Origin: Kordiimonadaceae bacterium
GTDB taxonomy: Bacteria > Pseudomonadota > Alphaproteobacteria > Sphingomonadales > Kordiimonadaceae
Reading direction: 5' to 3'
Assembly (NCBI GenBank): GCA_017640725.1
Contig: JAEPQB010000001.1
Span: 1,798,001 to 1,862,000, forward strand
DNA length: 64,000 bases
Both the position numbers and the translations under genes were made by a program. The notes under the pieces are model-generated. The model searched no databases, was not told where the DNA came from, and was given only the letters and a program-made list of their open reading frames with translations. Positions 1,074 to 10,414 of the stretch are shown here, piece by piece. Numbering within the stretch: position 1 is the first letter of the stretch; every line of letters starts with the position of its first letter.

Positions 1074-1093
1074 TATTGTATGGATGGTCAATA
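1074..1093. promoter_or_regulatory. Putative TetR operator, copy 1
   Basis: TATTGTATGGATGGTCAATA, an imperfect inverted repeat (TATTG / CAATA arms, 20 bp). It lies 29 bp upstream of the alpha/beta hydrolase start and in the spacer shared with the divergent two-component genes. The same 7-6-7 layout occurs at four other places, all in front of genes of the 1-10.4 kb island. Assignment to the TetR regulator at 4909-5562 is inference. Confidence 0.6.
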
Positions 1094-1122
1094 AGGCGAA
1101 TAGCGGGCACGGGGAGACGCTG

Positions 1123-2127
1123 ATGAAACTTTGGAAGAAAATCCTGCTGATTGTGGTTGCGGCAATTGTGCTTGTTCCCGCCGGCGTCTATCTCACATCG
1201 CTGGATTGGGACAGAACGCACCGGGCTTATGTGTCCAGTCTTCCCCTGTTTGAAACGGGTGTGGCAGACGGTGAGTATCAGATCACTGCCGGTGACTTCA
1301 CGTACCGTGCCCGGGTCGCAGGTTTGAATAATACGGGCCCGAATATTCTGCTGCTACACGGATTTCCGGAGTCGTCCGTTATCTGGGAAGAACTGATCGC
1401 TGCCGCAGCGAGTGAGGGGTTTCGGGTGGTTGCATTTGATCAGCGTGGCTACAGCCCGGGCGCGCGACCAAGCGGCGTTGAAAACTATAAGCTGCCGCTA
1501 CTGATTAACGACGTTTACGCGGTCGCAGATGCCGTGGGGTTCGACACATTTCACTTGGCAGGCCACGACTGGGGCGCTGTTGTTGGCTGGTTCACTGTCA
1601 TGAACAATGACTATGGCCGCATAAATAGCTGGGCGGCGCTTTCGATCCCGCATTCAGGTGTGTTTTTTAAAGGCACGATTGACGACCCGGTTCAAGCTGA
1701 ACGGTCAGGCTATGTGAAGTTTCTGCAGCGCCCGTTTTTGCCAGAGTTTCTGTTCACCATGCGGTCGCAAAAGTCGCTGAAAGACATGTTTGCGCGCGTA
1801 CCTGCCAGAAACCGGGACGAATATATTCGCATCCAGTCTGAGCCAGGCGCCCTTACAGCGGCATTAAACTGGTACCGTGCCGTTGATGTAACCGCGATTG
1901 CCGAAGGGGCAGAGTTTCAGAAAGCAGTTGCGCTGCCGACCCTGTTTATTTGGGGCAAAAATGATTTTGTGATTTCTGAATCCGTTATTGCATCAGCGCG
2001 TAACCTGATGCCGGAAGACTATACTGAACTTGCCCTCGATGCTGGCCATGCGCTTTTGCAGCATGCACCTGATGAGGTGTTACCGGCGCTGATTGCCCAT
2101 TGGCATAGACAGTCCAGCCCTGAATAG
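1123..2127 (+). CDS. Membrane-anchored alpha/beta hydrolase, epoxide-hydrolase type
   Basis: Alpha/beta-fold hydrolase of 334 aa. The ATG at 1123 is preferred over the track start at 1066 because GGGGAGA precedes it and it opens directly into a hydrophobic helix (residues 6-26) that would anchor or export the enzyme. HGFPES (79-84) forms the oxyanion region, and GHDWG carries the nucleophile D149, an aspartate as in epoxide hydrolases and haloalkane dehalogenases rather than a serine. D281 and H309 (DAGHALLQH) complete the triad. The family hydrolyses epoxides or C-halogen bonds; the substrate here is unknown. A putative TetR operator sits just upstream, placing it in the same regulon as the TonB receptor and PQQ dehydrogenase. 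Confidence 0.88.
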   Translation: MKLWKKILLIVVAAIVLVPAGVYLTSLDWDRTHRAYVSSLPLFETGVADGEYQITAGDFTYRARVAGLNNTGPNILLLHGFPESSVIWEELIAAAASEGFRVVAFDQRGYSPGARPSGVENYKLPLLINDVYAVADAVGFDTFHLAGHDWGAVVGWFTVMNNDYGRINSWAALSIPHSGVFFKGTIDDPVQAERSGYVKFLQRPFLPEFLFTMRSQKSLKDMFARVPARNRDEYIRIQSEPGALTAALNWYRAVDVTAIAEGAEFQKAVALPTLFIWGKNDFVISESVIASARNLMPEDYTELALDAGHALLQHAPDEVLPALIAHWHRQSSPE

Positions 2128-2163
2128 AAAAAACAGCACGAGGCCGGTTGGCTTCGTGCTGTT
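2126..2163 (-). terminator. Rho-independent terminator of the TonB receptor gene
   Basis: A perfect 10-bp stem AACAGCACGA/TCGTGCTGTT with a 12-nt loop. On the minus strand it is followed by TTTTTT, which fits the end of the TonB receptor transcript. The plus strand lacks a T tract, but the stem may also help end the convergent hydrolase transcript. Confidence 0.75.
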
Positions 2164-2232
2164 CTGGGAAGGGCCTGCGGGTGTCCCCAAGGGAAGGGCG
2201 CAACGGGGCAGGCCAGGGGTCACCACCACCCC

Positions 2233-4623
2233 TTAGAAGTTATAGTTAAGCTCCAGGCCGTAGGTGCGTGGCTCCAGCACGTTCACACTGCGGAACCGAC
2301 CGACAAGCGGTCCATCCTGACCGATGCGTGTCACTTCATCACTGTCGAAGATGTTTTTCATGTAAGCTTTTAGAGCCCAGGTGCCGTCACCTTGTGAGAG
2401 CACGAGTTGCGCGTCCGCCTGGCTCCAGGAACCAATACGGTCGGTCGGCTTGTTGAACTCGTTTGCGAAATAATTGTCCTGCCACGCATAGTCCACGCGC
2501 GCGGTAAGCTGATATTCGCCGTCAAGCTGCCAGGTGTAATCCCCGCCAACTTTGAAGGAGAAGTTTGGTGCATTCCGAAGCGTATTGCCGGCGATGTCCT
2601 GAATAACATTGCCGTCGGCATCGAACTGACGATTGCCGTTTTCGTCAAGTGCGATCACCACGCCAGGCGCCAGGCCTGCCGGGTCCCCGGGGTCAGACGT
2701 CAAAATGTTATCCAGCGTGACATCAAGGTAGGCAAAGTTGGCGTCCAGGAAGAACGCATCTGAGACCGCATAGTAGAACTCGGCCTCAAAACCCTTGATG
2801 TCCGCGTCGGCGTTAACGGTGACAACCGACACGCCGCGCACTGCGCCGATTTGCAGGTCGGTATAGTCATAATAGAAGGCGTTCAAGTTGGCGCGCAGGC
2901 GGCCGTCGAGGAACGTGCTTTTGGTGCCAACTTCGAAGGTATACAGGAATTCCGGGTCGAATGTTTCGCCGCCTGCGGGTCCACCAGGGTTCAGCCCACC
3001 GGCCTTATAGCCACGCGAGAATGTGCCATACAGTAGCGTGTCTTCATCCAGCCGGTGGTCAACGCTCAGCTTGCCGGTTGTGACGCTCCAGTCTTCTTCG
3101 GCGGCGGTGAAGTCTGGCAGGCTCCAGAACACTGTGCGGGTCCTGATTGATTTTTCGTCCCACGTGTGACGCACACCGACAGTCACGCGAGTGCGGTCTG
3201 ACATGTCATAATAGCCTTCCCCGAAAATAGCGAAACTGTCAGAGACGATATCTTCGCTTTCAATCGTGAAAAACTCGGCTTCGTCAGGCAGGCCAAGCAA
3301 GTTCTGGCCGATACTGAGGATCGGGTGGCTGAACTGTGCTTTTGCGTCGGCGTCATATTCGAAATAGAAGGCACCGATCAGGAAATTGAATTGGCCTTCA
3401 TAGTTGGAAGCAAGTCTCAATTCCTGGCTGAATTGTTCGGCAACCAGAATATCCTGACGGCCAGAGCGGATCTCGTCTGTTGTGATGTCATTGACAAAAT
3501 CAGCGCGGTACGTCACCGGGAAATTCAGCCGCTGGTTGCTGACAAAGCGATCAAAATCCTGGAACCGGTATGTGTCCAGGTCCTGGTAACCGGTGACGGC
3601 CGTGAGCGACAGGTCGCCAAAATCATAGGTCATTTCAAACGAGATAAAGAGCTCGTCCACCTGTGTGATGGGTTCCTGATCAATGTTCACAGTCCGGAAG
3701 TCCGGTGGGTTGAACGCATCAGAGAAATAATCACCGCCCGGCAGTGCACCAAGGAAATCAATGGAATTCCAAAGCGTGTTAGTAACATCCGGCGTTTCAA
3801 AGCCGCGCGAAAGTGCTGAACACCCAAACTGTGGGTCTTTGGTGCAGGTGCCTTTGGTTTCGTTGGCGCGGTTACTGTCTTCCTTCAGGTAGTTAACAAC
3901 CAGCGTCGCCGAGAAATTGTCACCGATATCCAGCGTTGAGGAACTTCTGAGCGCGTAACTGTCACGACCATCCACGTCGTTGCCTGTGAACAGGTTGGTA
4001 TTGTAACCGTCCCGTTTCAGGTAAATGCCAGCAAAGCGCTGTTTGAAATTGTCACTGACCGGCAGGTTAAGGGCGCCGCGGACCCGAAAGTTGTCATAGT
4101 TGCCGTACTGCACATTCACATGGCCGCCAAACTCGTCCGTGGGGCGTGCAGTAATAATGTTGAGGACGCCAGCGGTGGTGTTCCGGCCGTATAGCGTGCC
4201 TTGCGGACCACGCAGCACCTCGATGCGCTCAATGTCGAAATACTCGGTGTTTCGGCCCACTGGCGCGTTCAGGTAAACCTCGTTTACGTGATAGCCAAGG
4301 CCGTTTTCAGCGGTGCTTGAGATCGCGTTGTTGCCAACACCGCGCAGGTTCGCGCGGGCCTGGTCAAAGATCAGGTTTGGTACCGACAGCTGCAGGTCAA
4401 CCAGCTCTTCGATCACGCGCGTATCCAGCGCGTCGCCTGAAAAAGCAGAAATGGCGATGGGCACATCCTGCAGCGACTGTTCCCGCTTTTGTGCCGTCAC
4501 GATGATTTCTTCAAGCGCGAAGTCTTCGCTGTCTGTTGCCCCTTGCTGGGCGAACGCGCCGTGAGAAACGGACGCGAGTAAAGCCAGGCTCAACGCGTGG
4601 CGCGGTTTATTCAATATGGACAT
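2233..4623 (-). CDS. TonB-dependent outer-membrane receptor
   Basis: TonB-dependent receptor of 796 aa. It has a signal peptide (about 1-25, ending GAFA), a TonB box in EEIIVTAQ (about 38-45), a plug domain with the LRGPQGTLYGRN signature, and a long beta-barrel ending in an aromatic terminus (LNYNF) typical of outer-membrane proteins. The start is supported by a strong GGGGGGAG ribosome site. The plug resembles the broad receptor class of sphingomonads and marine alphaproteobacteria that import siderophores, glycans or aromatic compounds. No siderophore biosynthesis is nearby. It is divergent from the TetR gene, with two tandem putative operators in the spacer, so it probably imports the compound degraded by the island. 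The substrate is unknown. Confidence 0.93.
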   Translation of the reverse strand: MSILNKPRHALSLALLASVSHGAFAQQGATDSEDFALEEIIVTAQKREQSLQDVPIAISAFSGDALDTRVIEELVDLQLSVPNLIFDQARANLRGVGNNAISSTAENGLGYHVNEVYLNAPVGRNTEYFDIERIEVLRGPQGTLYGRNTTAGVLNIITARPTDEFGGHVNVQYGNYDNFRVRGALNLPVSDNFKQRFAGIYLKRDGYNTNLFTGNDVDGRDSYALRSSSTLDIGDNFSATLVVNYLKEDSNRANETKGTCTKDPQFGCSALSRGFETPDVTNTLWNSIDFLGALPGGDYFSDAFNPPDFRTVNIDQEPITQVDELFISFEMTYDFGDLSLTAVTGYQDLDTYRFQDFDRFVSNQRLNFPVTYRADFVNDITTDEIRSGRQDILVAEQFSQELRLASNYEGQFNFLIGAFYFEYDADAKAQFSHPILSIGQNLLGLPDEAEFFTIESEDIVSDSFAIFGEGYYDMSDRTRVTVGVRHTWDEKSIRTRTVFWSLPDFTAAEEDWSVTTGKLSVDHRLDEDTLLYGTFSRGYKAGGLNPGGPAGGETFDPEFLYTFEVGTKSTFLDGRLRANLNAFYYDYTDLQIGAVRGVSVVTVNADADIKGFEAEFYYAVSDAFFLDANFAYLDVTLDNILTSDPGDPAGLAPGVVIALDENGNRQFDADGNVIQDIAGNTLRNAPNFSFKVGGDYTWQLDGEYQLTARVDYAWQDNYFANEFNKPTDRIGSWSQADAQLVLSQGDGTWALKAYMKNIFDSDEVTRIGQDGPLVGRFRSVNVLEPRTYGLELNYNF

Positions 4624-4714
4624 TTTTTCTCCCCCCGGATTGTTGTGAAGGGCGCGCCTCCCATTGGCGAAATGCCCCCGCTGTCTGTTTCCGCATGTCG
4701 GGCATATTGTTCCT

Positions 4715-4734
4715 TATTGTATAAAGAGTCAATA
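4715..4734. promoter_or_regulatory. Putative TetR operator, copy 2
   Basis: TATTGTATAAAGAGTCAATA, same 7-6-7 inverted-repeat layout as the other copies, in the spacer between the TonB receptor and the divergent TetR gene. On the minus strand its arm contains TTGAC, a possible -35 element for the receptor gene, so binding would block that promoter. It is separated by one base from copy 3. Confidence 0.65.
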
Positions 4735-4735
4735 C

Positions 4736-4755
4736 TATTGTAATGATTTACAATA
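4736..4755. promoter_or_regulatory. Putative TetR operator, copy 3 (perfect arms)
   Basis: TATTGTAATGATTTACAATA has perfectly symmetrical 7-bp arms (TATTGTA/TACAATA). It is the most symmetric of the five copies and lies nearest the TetR gene. Copies 2 and 3 are 21 bp apart centre to centre, two helical turns, so two dimers could bind on one face. Confidence 0.68.
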
Positions 4756-4908
4756 AAAATCGGATAAAGATCCTATTTTACCCCCTTTTGCTAACCAAAT
4801 GGTCAATAAATAGCGAAAATAGAAACTCCGATAGGTTGCTATGGCTTGAGTTGCTGCAATCATTGCCGTTAGAGTATTTGGGGCTAATCAACATGGGTCA
4901 CGGAAATC

Positions 4909-5562
4909 ATGGCAACGGCAGATGCAAAAAAAACGACCAAGCGAACGCGGCTAAACCCCGAAGATCGCAAGCAAATTATTTTGGATACGTCCGCGCGTAT
5001 TGTCTCGGAAGAGGGTGTGTCCGTGCTAACCATGGACCGCATTGGCAAAGAAGTCGGCGTCAGTAAGTCGCTTATTTACGCCTATTTCCCGAATGTGACG
5101 CAGCTATTGAAAGAATTGTATGCACGCGAGTTGAAAGCGCTCCGCATGCTGCAAGTGGAAGCGGCTGATGAAGCAACTACCTTTGAGGGCATGGTCCGGC
5201 GGGTAACGCATGTGTATATGGAGTATATCGACACGCGCGGCATGCTTCTCTACCGCCTGCAGTCCGAGCCCAGCATCACCGATGGCATCAGTGGCCCCAC
5301 CTATTACAGCCGTGCAACAGCCGTTAATTATGTGGCGGAAATCATCCATGAGACATTTGATATCCCGATGGATATCGCGGTGGCCGCAACCGATATTTCA
5401 TACGGTTTGCCGGAGGCGGGCGGTAACTATCTGCACCGCAAAAAAGCCGACCGCCAGCAAATTGAGGACCTGACAGCAACCATGCTGATTGGCTCGATCA
5501 AAGAACTGGCCGCAAACTATCAAACACGTTTGCGGCCCTTGAAGCGCGGTAAGTCCGAATAG
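4909..5562 (+). CDS. TetR-family transcriptional regulator
   Basis: One-component regulator of 217 aa. The TetR_N helix-turn-helix spans about residues 22-68, with the recognition helix around VSKSLIYAYFPN (51-62). The C-terminal ligand/dimer domain shows no close landmark. It is divergent from the TonB receptor, and the spacer holds two tandem palindromes typical of TetR autoregulation. Three more copies precede the hydrolase gene and the PQQ-dehydrogenase/GST spacer, so this protein is the best candidate for local repressor of the whole island. The inducer is presumably a substrate or intermediate of the pathway. Family assignment is firm; the regulon is inferred. Confidence 0.92.
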   Translation: MATADAKKTTKRTRLNPEDRKQIILDTSARIVSEEGVSVLTMDRIGKEVGVSKSLIYAYFPNVTQLLKELYARELKALRMLQVEAADEATTFEGMVRRVTHVYMEYIDTRGMLLYRLQSEPSITDGISGPTYYSRATAVNYVAEIIHETFDIPMDIAVAATDISYGLPEAGGNYLHRKKADRQQIEDLTATMLIGSIKELAANYQTRLRPLKRGKSE

Positions 5563-5582
5563 CGCCAAATTCGCAGAGCCTC

Positions 5583-6341
5583 CTACATCGGGAAGATCGA
5601 CTGCCCGCCATCAATAATGATTTCCTGGCCAGTGATGTAATTGCTTTCGCTGGATGCGAGGAACACGGCAATGCCTTCCATGTCCTCAAGCGTTCCGATC
5701 ACACCAGACGCCGTGCGCCGGCGTGCAGAATCCTGGAAGTACTGAGGTGTTTTCAGGGACATTTCTGTTTCAATAAACCCGGGCAACACAGCATTCACCT
5801 GAATGTTGCTCCGGCCAAGCTCAACAGCCAGCGCGCGTGTCAGTCCCGATACAGCTGCCTTGGTTGCGCTATAGCCGGCCCCGTTCCCAATGCCCAGATG
5901 GGCGGCAATCGAAGAAGTGACAACCAGTTTGCCGGGCGCCCCCCGCTCAATCAGCTGCTTGATCACAGGTTGGTAGGTATTCACGACGCTTGTCAGGTTG
6001 AGGTCCACCACCGCTGACCAGTCATCCGCTGAAAGTTCATGCAGCAACCCGCGTGCGCCGGACCCTCCCGCATTGGCAAAACAACTGTCTATCTGGCCAA
6101 AACGCTCCATTGTTTCAGCAAATGCAGTGGCCACGCTATCGGTGTTGGTTACGTCGCATACGAAGGCGGCCGCGTCTCCGTCCAATGCCGCCAGCTCCTT
6201 TAGTGCTGCTTCATTTTTGCTCTCGTTGCGCCCCCAAATAGCGACCTTTGCGCCTGCCTTTAAAAGCCCTTTGGCAAACGCGAGCCCAATGCCGCCATTA
6301 CCACCTGTCACCAGCGCAACTTTACCGGTCAAGTCAAACAT
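5583..6341 (-). CDS. Short-chain dehydrogenase/reductase (SDR)
   Basis: Classical SDR oxidoreductase of 252 aa, full length. The cofactor motif TGGNGGIG is at 12-19, the NAG motif at 90-92, and the catalytic residues are S143/S144, Y157 and K161 (YSATK). It ends IDGGQS, as in FabG-like enzymes. A basic residue after the first strand (GRNES, about 38) suggests NADP(H) preference. It starts 2 bp after the stop of the VOC gene and so is third in the run PQQ dehydrogenase-VOC-SDR. It probably oxidises or reduces a pathway alcohol or ketone in the cytoplasm after import. The substrate is unknown. Confidence 0.9.
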   Translation of the reverse strand: MFDLTGKVALVTGGNGGIGLAFAKGLLKAGAKVAIWGRNESKNEAALKELAALDGDAAAFVCDVTNTDSVATAFAETMERFGQIDSCFANAGGSGARGLLHELSADDWSAVVDLNLTSVVNTYQPVIKQLIERGAPGKLVVTSSIAAHLGIGNGAGYSATKAAVSGLTRALAVELGRSNIQVNAVLPGFIETEMSLKTPQYFQDSARRRTASGVIGTLEDMEGIAVFLASSESNYITGQEIIIDGGQSIFPM

Positions 6342-6343
6342 TC

Positions 6344-7381
6344 TTATTGTCTCCGTTCAAACATTGGCAATGCTGTCAGAGACAGCGCAGAACCTTCGTT
6401 AAATTCTGTGATCGACAAGAGATTGCCGTCAGGGTCACGCAGAAAAATTGCACGCCCGTCTTCGACAGCGACAACGCCTGTCAATGTATCAATCCCTGCT
6501 GCCTTCAGTCTTGCTGCGTCAGCCGCAATGTCATTGCTTTCGAGCGCGATCAGATTGTAACCAATCTCATTCAGGGCCACCGGTTCCTCCGCTGCCTCTG
6601 TGCGCGGCTTCGCATATTCCCAAAATTCAAGGTTATAGAAGGGGGCAAGCCGAAACCACGCGCCGTGAAGCACGCCGCCCTCAAGCCCCCCAACCAGGTC
6701 AAATGTAGGGCCTTTGATATTATCCACCCTGCGATAGGCCTCAAAACCCAACAGCTTGCTATAAAACTCCATAGTGGCCGTCAAATCGTGGGTTGCCAGC
6801 GCGACATGACCCATCCAAACGTCAATATTCATATTGGGGTCCGGGTTATGCTCGATCTCAAACATCAAACCATCGGGGTCCCTAAGATACCCATACATGT
6901 AACCAACGCCGCGCATATCAACCATGGCTTTGCTGGTGCTGACCCAGGTTGCTCCAGCTCCCACCGCCTTACCGTCAATCGGTTTGGTTTTAGGTGCTAT
7001 AAAGCAAATGTGGGTGATGCCCGGGCCCTGCGGTTGAAGGGAATTGTCTCCCGCATGCTGGCTGCCTTCAAATGCCATCAGTTTCAGAAAGCTGTTCGGC
7101 CCGCGCAGCTGCAGCATGGCTGCTGGCAAATCGCTCCCGCCGACGGCGGATCGCAGCGCTGGGCTCACGTCTTTCTGCGCTCCAACGGCCTCAAGTCCAA
7201 ACGAACCGGCATAGAACTCCTTTGCTGCATCCAGGTCCTTCACACTCATGCCGACGTGATTGACGCCAATAATGCTCGAGTTGCCGGGTTTATAGAGTGC
7301 ATCGGTACGAGTTTCTTGGGCAGCGGCACCGACGGCAAGAAATCCACTTATTGCGGCGGTTACTGCGAGTGCCTTAATCAT
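6344..7381 (-). CDS. Exported protein with two VOC (glyoxalase/dioxygenase fold) domains
   Basis: 345 aa with a clear signal peptide (MIKALAVTAAISGFLAVGAAA, cleavage near 21), then two vicinal-oxygen-chelate domains at about 37-160 and 190-325. Typical first-strand motifs are NHVGMSVKDLDAAKEFY and GHVALATHDLTATMEFY, and each half ends with RDPDG. The VOC fold includes glyoxalase I, extradiol dioxygenases and fosfomycin-resistance proteins, usually cytoplasmic; an exported two-domain form is unusual. Its start overlaps the end of the PQQ dehydrogenase gene by 8 bp (ATGATTAA), and the SDR follows 2 bp later, so all three form one operon. A periplasmic isomerase, lyase or dioxygenase step is plausible but not shown. 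Confidence 0.85.
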   Translation of the reverse strand: MIKALAVTAAISGFLAVGAAAQETRTDALYKPGNSSIIGVNHVGMSVKDLDAAKEFYAGSFGLEAVGAQKDVSPALRSAVGGSDLPAAMLQLRGPNSFLKLMAFEGSQHAGDNSLQPQGPGITHICFIAPKTKPIDGKAVGAGATWVSTSKAMVDMRGVGYMYGYLRDPDGLMFEIEHNPDPNMNIDVWMGHVALATHDLTATMEFYSKLLGFEAYRRVDNIKGPTFDLVGGLEGGVLHGAWFRLAPFYNLEFWEYAKPRTEAAEEPVALNEIGYNLIALESNDIAADAARLKAAGIDTLTGVVAVEDGRAIFLRDPDGNLLSITEFNEGSALSLTALPMFERRQ

Positions 7382-9230
7382 TTTTGGTTTCCTTCACTTT
7401 GTACGAGAGCAAAACATTGCCGAACTTTTGACCCCATTTGTCATAGCCGGACGTAACCAGCATGCGGTGCCCCACAAGCACTGGCCCGTCCGAGTCCATC
7501 GAGCCACCCTCCGCCTCGACGCCGTTAACAGACGTGAATTTGCGGTTGGTATCATCGTGCCAGAGAATGGCGCCCGTTTCGGCGTCAAAAATGTGCATTA
7601 CGCCGTCTAAGCCGCCACCAAACACAAGCCCATTACCCAGCGTTGCCGCTGACGATAGGCCTGGGGAACAACGCCATTTGGCATCGCCGCAAACATCTTT
7701 TGTCAGGGTTTTCCAGATCAGCTCACCGGTCGCGGCGCGAACCGCATGCATGCCAGACTGCGCTGGTTTATGAGCGTCCCATGGATAGACGGACAAGTCT
7801 GAGATAGGTACAAACAGCACGTCACCGTCAGATGCCATGCCCCAATGGATGCCGCCCATAATGCCGCCGCGACCCACTTGATTGCGCCACAAAAGCTTGC
7901 CGCCGTCATCCGGGTCCATGGCATACACCATGCCCGACTTTTGGCCCGCAAGAATGATGTCATGGCCGCTTGGCAAGGTTGTCAGTACGGGCGGTGCGCC
8001 AAAGTCATAATCTGGCCCCCGGTTTTCGGGGCAATTTGGCCCTGCAGTCCAGCCACATGACCCATTCCAGGCATCGTCTTTTGTGACCTGGTTTACCCAC
8101 TCAATTGCACCCGTCTCGATGGATAGTGCAACAATGGCGTCGCTGGTGCCTGTGGTGGGGCGGGAGTAGTTTTCGCCCGTTCCAACATATATGCGGCCGC
8201 GTTTTGCGTCGATCGTAGGGCTGGACCAAATTGGCACGCCCGAGGGGCCAAAACGGGCGGTCCCAACTGAAGTCTCGCCCTGCGGTTTGGCCTTCTCCAG
8301 CATGTAGGACTGCCACCGCGTCTCGCCTGTCATTTTATCCAGGGCCAGAATGGAGCCCCGGAATGTGCAACAGGCATAGTCCGGGTTTGCGGCTGACACC
8401 ACCTCACGTGACGAAACCGGAACATACAGCGTGTCCCCATGCACTACTGGCGAGCCAGTGATGGTGGCAACAGGATGATCATCCGCGCGGATTTTCCACG
8501 AAACCTGCTGAGTTGCCAGATCCAGCCCATAAACATTGCCTTCAAAGTCACCGAAATATAGACGTGACGCATTGCCCGTTTCGTCGGTATCAATTGCGAT
8601 CGCGCTTCTCACTTCTGCGTCGACCTGCACGTCGAAATGAATGCAGCCGCTGTTGATATCCAGCGCATAAATTTTGCCATTTTGCGCTGCGGTAAACAGT
8701 GTATCGCCCGCAACAGTTGGCTGGGCGCGGGCGCGGGCGCTGTCAGGAAACGCGAACACCCAATCAAGTTCCAGACCTGAAACATTTTCAATCGTGATTG
8801 AACTTTCGACATGTCGCGCATTAGCGAGGCCAAGGCCCCAATTTACAATCTTGGCCGTAAGCGGGGATGCAGAGAAATCGCGTTGATCCTTGCAGTATGC
8901 TGCAGCGTTGCTGGCAGGGGAGCCTGTTTCAGCGCTTGGTGCTGCGCCAAGATAGTCGGCAATCAGCCGCCGTTCATCCGGCGACAAATGTCCTGACTGG
9001 ACCAGCATAACACCGTCGTTCATCGCTCTGAATATATGGTCGGCGGAAAGCCGTCGCAGGGCTTCCGTTAACGGCGCTTCTGCGGCGCCGGCATCGTGGC
9101 AGGCGGCGCAGTTTTCCTCAAACAGCGTTTTGCCGTCTGTCGGGTCATTGCTCGCCAGTGCACTCAATGAGTGCAACATGATGCCAGCAGCTAAAGTTGA
9201 AATACCGGTAAATTTGCGCGCGATTGGCAT
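7374..9230 (-). CDS. PQQ-dependent quinohemoprotein dehydrogenase (polyvinyl-alcohol-dehydrogenase-like)
   Basis: Periplasmic quinoprotein of 618 aa. It has a signal peptide (about 1-27, ending SALA), an N-terminal cytochrome c domain with CAACH (C41, C44, H45), then an eight-bladed PQQ propeller (about 130-610) with repeated GxxxALDxxTGxxxW tryptophan-docking motifs. The adjacent cysteines C287-C288 (DYACCTFRGS) match the vicinal disulfide found near PQQ in this family. Heme c upstream of the propeller is the arrangement described for polyvinyl alcohol dehydrogenases of sphingomonads. It would oxidise an alcohol in the periplasm and pass electrons to the respiratory chain. No PQQ biosynthesis genes are in the window. 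First gene of a three-gene operon, with two tandem putative TetR operators upstream. Confidence 0.88.
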   Translation of the reverse strand: MPIARKFTGISTLAAGIMLHSLSALASNDPTDGKTLFEENCAACHDAGAAEAPLTEALRRLSADHIFRAMNDGVMLVQSGHLSPDERRLIADYLGAAPSAETGSPASNAAAYCKDQRDFSASPLTAKIVNWGLGLANARHVESSITIENVSGLELDWVFAFPDSARARAQPTVAGDTLFTAAQNGKIYALDINSGCIHFDVQVDAEVRSAIAIDTDETGNASRLYFGDFEGNVYGLDLATQQVSWKIRADDHPVATITGSPVVHGDTLYVPVSSREVVSAANPDYACCTFRGSILALDKMTGETRWQSYMLEKAKPQGETSVGTARFGPSGVPIWSSPTIDAKRGRIYVGTGENYSRPTTGTSDAIVALSIETGAIEWVNQVTKDDAWNGSCGWTAGPNCPENRGPDYDFGAPPVLTTLPSGHDIILAGQKSGMVYAMDPDDGGKLLWRNQVGRGGIMGGIHWGMASDGDVLFVPISDLSVYPWDAHKPAQSGMHAVRAATGELIWKTLTKDVCGDAKWRCSPGLSSAATLGNGLVFGGGLDGVMHIFDAETGAILWHDDTNRKFTSVNGVEAEGGSMDSDGPVLVGHRMLVTSGYDKWGQKFGNVLLSYKVKETKND

Positions 9231-9278
9231 GGAAACACTCTCTCCCCTTGTGCGCCATCTGAGGGTAACTTACGCTCT

Positions 9279-9298
9279 TATTGCAACTTTAGTCAATA
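9279..9298. promoter_or_regulatory. Putative TetR operator, copy 4
   Basis: TATTGCAACTTTAGTCAATA, matching the common TATTGnn-N6-nnCAATA layout with one variant base in the left arm. It lies 49 bp upstream of the PQQ dehydrogenase start, in the divergent spacer shared with the GST gene. Confidence 0.6.
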
Positions 9299-9301
9299 TA
9301 C

Positions 9302-9321
9302 TATTGTAAATATAGTCAATA
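9302..9321. promoter_or_regulatory. Putative TetR operator, copy 5
   Basis: TATTGTAAATATAGTCAATA, second member of the tandem pair in the 299-bp spacer between the PQQ dehydrogenase and GST genes. It sits 23 bp (centre to centre) from copy 4. Its minus-strand arm includes TTGACT, a possible -35 element toward the dehydrogenase operon. The remaining spacer to 9529 shows no further structure. Confidence 0.63.
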
Positions 9322-9529
9322 AAGAAACTTTCGGTTCCTCCCCAAATCGCGGCCTTTGGTTAACTCGACACAAGCATTTCTTGTTTGAAGATGGCGTACA
9401 CGTGCCAATCTTACCAATAACGATAGCAATAATGTGACATGGCCAGCCGTTGACCTTGGGGAGATGCTTTGCCACGTTATCTGCAATGCTCAAGAAGCGC
9501 TCTCTCGCGCGACAAAGGAAATTCTGACT

Positions 9530-10414
9530 ATGTCCGATAACAATACTTACACTCCGCCTAAAGTATGGAAATGGGATAGCGAAAGCGGTGGACGCTTTGC
9601 GAAAATAAATCGCCCAATTTCAGGCGCTACTCACGAGAAAGAACTGCCCTCTGGAAAGCACCCGTTTCAGCTCTATTCACTAGCAACGCCAAACGGCGTG
9701 AAAGTGACAGTTCTTCTGGAAGAACTGTTGGAAGCCGGGCATACGGGCGCTGAGTATGACGCCTATACCGTTGATATCGGCGAAGGTCAGCAATTCAGCT
9801 CCGGTTTTGTGGCGGCAAACCCTAATTCCAAAATCCCTGCCATGTGGGACAAAAGCGGTGACGAACCAGTCCGCTTGTTTGAAAGTGCTTCTATTATGAT
9901 GCATCTGGCAGAAAAGTTCGACGCCTTTTTGCCTGCTGAAGGACCGGCGCGCGCGGAATGTTTGTCCTGGCTCTTTTGGCAGATGGGCAGTGCACCCTTC
10001 CTGGGTGGTGGCTTTGGCCATTTTTACGCCTACGCGCCGGAAAAATGGCAGTACCCGATCGACCGTTACGCCATGGAAGTGAAGCGGCAACTTGATGTTC
10101 TAGACAAGCAGCTTGCTGACAAGAAATACATTTGTGGTGATGACTATACCATTGCTGACATGGCCATTTGGGCTTGGTACGGCGCACTGGTGCTCGGCAA
10201 GCTATATGAAGCGGCTGAGTTTTTGGATGTGGCGTCCTATACGAATGTAGTGCGCTGGGCGAAAGAGATTGCCGAACGGCCTGCCGTGAAGCGCGGCATT
10301 ATGGTGAACCGCGCGTGGGGTGACCCAGCGGGGCAGCTGAGGGAACGTCACGACGCCAGTGACTTTGAGCATGGAACCTGGGACAAAGTTGGCGGCGAGG
10401 AAGCTGCCGAATAA
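9530..10414 (+). CDS. yghU: Glutathione transferase-like protein, YghU family
   Basis: 294 aa, starting at the ATG with AAAGGAA upstream rather than the longer track start at 9434. The N-terminal region (TYTPPKVWKWD, then INRPISGATHEKELPSGKHP) and the C-terminal RHDASDFE segment match the E. coli YghU/YfcG group nearly end to end from memory. These proteins have a thioredoxin-like domain (about 45-135) and an all-helical domain (150-290), bind two glutathione molecules, and show disulfide-bond reductase activity with weak classical GST activity. It is divergent from the PQQ dehydrogenase operon and shares its operator-bearing spacer, so it may protect against, or act on, an electrophilic intermediate. 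A strong terminator follows. Confidence 0.9.
   Translation: MSDNNTYTPPKVWKWDSESGGRFAKINRPISGATHEKELPSGKHPFQLYSLATPNGVKVTVLLEELLEAGHTGAEYDAYTVDIGEGQQFSSGFVAANPNSKIPAMWDKSGDEPVRLFESASIMMHLAEKFDAFLPAEGPARAECLSWLFWQMGSAPFLGGGFGHFYAYAPEKWQYPIDRYAMEVKRQLDVLDKQLADKKYICGDDYTIADMAIWAWYGALVLGKLYEAAEFLDVASYTNVVRWAKEIAERPAVKRGIMVNRAWGDPAGQLRERHDASDFEHGTWDKVGGEEAAE

Follow-up and report, generated by a model that had tools for sequence, protein, structure and literature searches.

The TetR-family repressor EdcR controls estradiol catabolism in Caenibius tardaugens, a member of the same order as the bacterium analysed here, and its proposed operator is TnnCnnTACnAnTnGTAnnGnnA (PMC8700777). By its biology, EdcR is the closest described case to the TetR-family regulator encoded at 4909-5562 on the plus strand of our window, by which we mean the whole 64-kb stretch of DNA that was analysed. 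Both regulators lie inside a catabolic cluster with a TonB receptor and a VOC protein, and both are associated with palindromic operators (putative ones in the window) near promoters. However, a comparison by operator and gene content showed that the two systems have different operators and different enzymes, and the TnnCnnTACnAnTnGTAnnGnnA form was absent from the five window sites and from the 56-site consensus described below. FrrA, a flavonoid-responsive TetR protein of Bradyrhizobium (PDB 6g87, 6g8g and 6g8h), provides the best PDB sequence match of the window TetR (6g87; residues 17-104, 6.7e-7) and is among its best fold matches, at 21% identity. The sequence similarity is concentrated in the DNA-binding half, scores almost as high are common among TetR proteins, and the match gives no safe inference on ligand or operator. 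An attempt to read the ligand from the fold was likewise set aside, with no one structure standing out, and PheR, another regulator met in the literature, is of the IclR family. Neither this operator nor this TetR clade is described in the open literature that we searched, outside which further papers are possible, and a search by operator sequence returned only unrelated papers.

The window TetR has 217 aa and carries a TetR_N helix-turn-helix at its N-terminus (PF00440, E 3.3e-11, 43.2 bits against a cut-off of 24), with Y57-A58-Y59 in helix 3. Its predicted fold consists of nine helices and is all-helical (pLDDT 76, pTM 0.69; the C-terminal part is of moderate confidence, with 3 sequences in the input alignment), and it matches solved TetR proteins with E values of 2e-6 and weaker and TM scores of 0.5-0.6. 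The N-terminal helix-turn-helix, and a predicted all-helical fold that includes a C-terminal ligand-binding/dimerisation domain, place the protein in the TetR family. None of the 14 NCBIfam TetR equivalogs listed (AcrR, FasR, BetI, KstR, SlmA and others) reached its cut-off, the best score being 31.8 bits for AcrR against a cut-off of 271.

The TetR gene is divergent from that of a TonB-dependent receptor (2233-4623, minus strand; PF00593 and PF07715). Three further minus-strand genes probably form one operon, namely a PQQ-type dehydrogenase with an N-terminal cytochrome c domain (7374-9230; PF01011, PF13360, PF13442), a VOC/glyoxalase-fold protein (6344-7381; PF00903) and an SDR oxidoreductase (5583-6341; PF13561), in that order of transcription; the first two overlap by 8 bp and the VOC-SDR gap is 2 bp. 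The locus also encodes a membrane-anchored, epoxide-hydrolase-like alpha/beta hydrolase (1123-2127, plus strand; PF00561), whose top PDB matches are epoxide hydrolases. We read signal-peptide-like starts by eye on the PQQ, VOC and TonB proteins and a hydrophobic anchor on the hydrolase, and thus the cell envelope appears to be where most of the module operates. We refer to the TonB receptor, cytochrome c/PQQ dehydrogenase, VOC, SDR and hydrolase genes as the envelope catabolic module.

We identified five exact matches to TATTG-N10-CAATA in the window, all on the plus strand, and no others: operator 1 (TATTGTATGGATGGTCAATA, 1074-1093), operator 2 (TATTGTATAAAGAGTCAATA, 4715-4734), operator 3 (TATTGTAATGATTTACAATA, 4736-4755), operator 4 (TATTGCAACTTTAGTCAATA, 9279-9298) and operator 5 (TATTGTAAATATAGTCAATA, 9302-9321). 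These are the five 20-mers of the initial annotation, each exactly where it had been placed. With one mismatch allowed there were 11 matches against 1.6 expected in shuffles, and no shuffle reached 11. Operators 2 and 3 form a 21-bp tandem in the divergent TonB/TetR spacer, and operators 4 and 5 a 23-bp tandem 5' of the PQQ-VOC-SDR operon. Both spacings had been given correctly, but their reading as two helical turns suits 21 bp and not 23 bp (~2.2 turns). Operator 1 falls inside the longest open reading frame, which opens at 1066; the hydrolase start is likelier to be ATG 1123, since GGGGAG lies directly 5' of it and it agrees with the start in the L016 relative. Operator 1 therefore probably lies upstream of the hydrolase gene, ending 29 bp before its ATG, and with this start the claim that the sites are confined to spacers 5' of genes holds. 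The arms of the site at 4736 are indeed perfect, although they are 8 bp long (TATTGTAA/TTACAATA) and not 7 bp. A half-site, GGTCAATA at 4800-4807, was considered as a TetR autoregulatory site and rejected, as it is not kept in L016.

We propose, with a probability of about 0.88, that the five elements are operators of the 4909-5562 TetR protein, which would repress three transcription units until a ligand binds. A TetR dimer would occupy TATTRTA-N6-GTCAATA elements at or close to the promoters of the hydrolase gene, of the TonB receptor gene (with the divergent TetR gene) and of the PQQ dehydrogenase-VOC-SDR operon. It would hold these units repressed until a small molecule, presumably a substrate or intermediate of the uptake-and-oxidation pathway, occupies the C-terminal domain, and the tandem copies in two spacers would probably hold two dimers. 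Such ligand-relieved repression is the most likely mechanism, judged by analogy with other TetR-family proteins; we infer the physical binding, the preference for repression over activation, the inducer and the role of the tandem sites.

The TTGAC arm of the sites faces most TonB genes, the SDR genes and, in the window, the PQQ operon; it faces away from the hydrolase gene and from PQQ genes in other Sphingomonadales. An overlap with -35 elements, as suggested initially, is thus possible where the arm faces the gene but does not serve as a general rule. A scan of promoter offsets (140 tested) gave a weak -10 peak at offset 25 in one group (z 3.6) and weak peaks at offsets 0, 5 and 6 in the other (z 2.6-3.9), so the statistics behind a -10 or -35 placement of the operator are weak. 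The best promoter of the window itself, ATTACA-N17-TACAAT, whose hexamers fall in operators 3 and 2, was no better than those in shuffles. It is unlikely that TetR binds these sites mainly to activate, or needs ligand in order to bind, with the TonB and PQQ sites recruiting polymerase. Some TetR-family proteins are activators, and the tandem sites of the window lie 48-112 bp 5' of the TonB and PQQ start codons, so that a position upstream of the promoter is possible. In most Sphingomonadales relatives, however, 4-40 bp separate the end of the PQQ site from the predicted start, and in the clearest cases (L074, L087, L089 and L090) a TTGACA-N16-TATAAT/TATGAT promoter has its good -10 within the operator; both placements suit repression, which we continue to favour. 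The window's TonB/TetR sites are ~150-175 bp from the TetR start, and autoregulation through this shared spacer is uncertain. In relatives whose PQQ, VOC and TetR genes all point the same way, TetR could in addition control its own gene from the PQQ operator.

In the closest relative, where loci L016 and L070 are on the same contig, the TetR protein is 80% identical to that of the window. Gene order is the same and five sites occupy the same five places, with one 5' of the hydrolase gene, a 21-bp pair between TonB and TetR and a 23-bp pair 5' of PQQ. The counterpart of operator 1, with one mismatch, is at L016:6116, 5' of the orthologous hydrolase gene; the MAFFT alignment of this spacer did not run through the site, which was located by pattern. 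Operator 2 is an identical 20-mer, and operator 3 has two substitutions that leave its arms imperfect. Pairwise alignment showed the TonB/TetR pair as a nearly unbroken island within a diverged spacer, and operators 4 and 5 as retaining arms and spacing with changed centres and surroundings.

Of 401 genomes of the order, 29 yielded homologues of the TetR protein; a sample of the class added 3 more genomes, and 35 TetR loci were retrieved for comparison. SDR, VOC, TonB and PQQ genes recur near the TetR gene in varying order. A matrix built from the five window sites alone (threshold at least 16.8 bits) gave 51 matches in the 34 other TetR loci, L070 being left out. Two thirds of these (34/51) are within 150 bp 5' of TonB, PQQ, VOC, SDR or hydrolase genes, zones that make up 2.5% of the sequence of the 34 loci and in which 1.3 matches were expected. 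Sites precede TonB genes in many relatives, PQQ genes in most relatives that have one, the hydrolase gene also in L070 and L071, and the SDR gene, as an operator of its own, in L076, L077, L078 and L083. Several of the other 17 matches precede further plausible targets: L102 and L104 have matches before MFS or amidohydrolase genes, and at L078:3675-3694 a canonical site precedes an SSF-GalT-GalK operon with a GH42 beta-galactosidase gene nearby, where the regulator may have acquired sugar genes. Sites are thus kept in relatives that retain the TetR gene, as the initial annotation anticipated, with all five present at the orthologous locus and a matrix match in 21 of the 23 loci that remain once one paralogous clade is set aside. 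L075 and L082 have no canonical site, only degenerate matches before TonB, though their TetR proteins are in the main group.

These comparisons also revise the list of targets. The hydrolase, TonB and PQQ genes stand as proposed, and VOC and SDR are to be added since both belong to the PQQ operon. The divergent neighbour of that operon encodes a glutathione transferase, a YghU-like glutathione-dependent disulfide-bond oxidoreductase (9434-10414, likely start 9527, plus strand; NF008731, 514 bits), which had also been counted in the regulon. We rejected it as a member: none of the 35 related loci gave a tblastn match above 80 bits, and L016 has an amidohydrolase gene in its place. It is probably no target, because it is absent from this locus in all relatives.

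Across the 401 genomes, the exact pattern TATTRTA-N6-GTCAATA, derived from one of the 29 TetR-bearing genomes, occurs in 13 of these 29 and in 9 of the other 372 (Fisher p = 2.6e-11 with kinship ignored; given that kinship, the association is partly non-independent). All 21 sites in TetR-bearing genomes belong to the module, including one in G083 that is on another contig, before the PQQ homologue of that genome. In G056, a genome without this TetR, no site accompanies the PQQ homologue.

We derived the consensus TATT(G/A)TA(C/T/A)N(A/T)(A/T)T(A/C)GTCAATA from 56 distinct sites, which were gathered by the five-site matrix and are therefore somewhat biased towards the form of those sites. The T at position 6 is the least fixed arm position. 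Position 7 is invariably A and its mirror position 14 nearly always G, and thus the operator is consistently asymmetric; an asymmetric consensus is unusual for a homodimer site. The outer arms have their dyad axis at about position 10.5, and the inner pairs A7-T15 and (C/T)8-G14 at about position 11. Neither TATTGAC-N6-GTCAATA nor TATTGTA-N6-TACAATA occurs in the relatives' loci, and we estimate that a symmetric GAC/GTC site would score just above the matrix threshold. The symmetry of the 4736 site, pointed out initially, is not conserved, and it is not shared by the family consensus.

We also found 11 loci (L088 and L091-L100) whose TetR proteins form a paralogous clade, 42-49% identical to the window's. 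The canonical site is absent from all 11, and their TonB/VOC spacers hold variant dyads, read by eye, such as TTGGACTATATGTCC and TTTGACTTAAAGTCCA. At the position of A58 in helix 3, ten of the 11 paralogues have Lys or Arg and L097 has Thr; elsewhere the residue is Ala, Asn, Thr or Val. These observations fit a change of operator specificity in the clade, which is essentially one evolutionary event. In a close Kordiimonas relative (G068:C4; L097 and L070), two TetR paralogues are separated by ~24 kb; canonical operators accompany the one and variant operators the other, so that cross-talk could be probed there within a single cell. More broadly, we give an even chance to a wider reading in which TetR proteins of one lineage, distributed across several families of Alphaproteobacteria, control variants of the envelope module through an operator of conserved asymmetry, with axes half a base pair apart, and in which the paralogous branch switched to a GGAC-N5-GTCC-like dyad along with the helix-3 Lys/Arg change. 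If so, the two branches would form a natural series from which TetR operator specificity could be read.

The host is a marine bacterium with a Kordiimonas-type genome of 4.04 Mb (G000; the window is on contig C6). Within this genome, scanned by pattern searches, the loose form of the site occurs 18 times, five of them within these 8.2 kb (Poisson P ~5e-10). The strict form TATTGNA-N6-GTCAATA, common to four of the five sites, occurs exactly four times, all of them here, and so has no match at unrelated promoters. We inspected 17 loose or near matches elsewhere, of which 16 were within open reading frames. An intergenic site with two mismatches (AATTGACAATATAGTCAATA, L144:1513-1532, G000:C7:869412-869431) lies just 5' of a gene for a Baeyer-Villiger-monooxygenase-like flavoprotein, with a sorbosone-dehydrogenase-like gene on its other, divergent side, and is possibly an outlying target or a site of another regulator. 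A perfect dyad with similar outer arms, TATTGATA-N4-TATCAATA (L014:1501-1520, G000:C7:276492-276511), lies in the same genome in the spacer that a second TetR gene shares with a divergently transcribed gene for a fatty-acid desaturase, and is probably the operator of that second TetR.

The near-exclusivity of the motif, its conservation, its co-occurrence with the TetR gene and the variant dyads of the paralogous clade make it very probably the operator of this TetR. We regard as very improbable that the sites serve another factor encoded elsewhere and merely travel with the TetR gene. The dyad beside the desaturase gene suggests that similar arms are read by other proteins, but another factor should have sites elsewhere, whereas the strict form is confined to the module locus, the motif tracks this TetR across genomes and the operator form shifts with the TetR clade. 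Chance similarity among promoter spacers, which are AT-rich in a genome with 18 loose matches, can practically be dismissed given the clustering, the exclusive strict form and the conservation of the sites in place in relatives.

In conclusion, the exclusivity of the strict form and the retention of the sites support the original proposal of a TetR operator that defines a local regulon, and judged from sequence the regulon is apparently real, of a conventional, self-contained repressor type, and undescribed. An apparently uncharacterised alphaproteobacterial TetR clade thereby gains a predicted operator, predicted targets and, in the paralogous clade, a counterpart whose site has changed, and its specificity and inducer become directly testable. 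The regulon would tie one TonB uptake system to PQQ/cytochrome c oxidation in the periplasm and to a VOC protein and an SDR, which may aid identification of the substrate. The general understanding of TetR regulation is unchanged. As in typical TetR local regulons, an N-terminal helix-turn-helix is joined to a helical C-terminal domain, the regulator gene lies beside its predicted targets and dyads of ~20 bp are found near promoters; unlike in those systems, the operator consensus departs consistently from symmetry.
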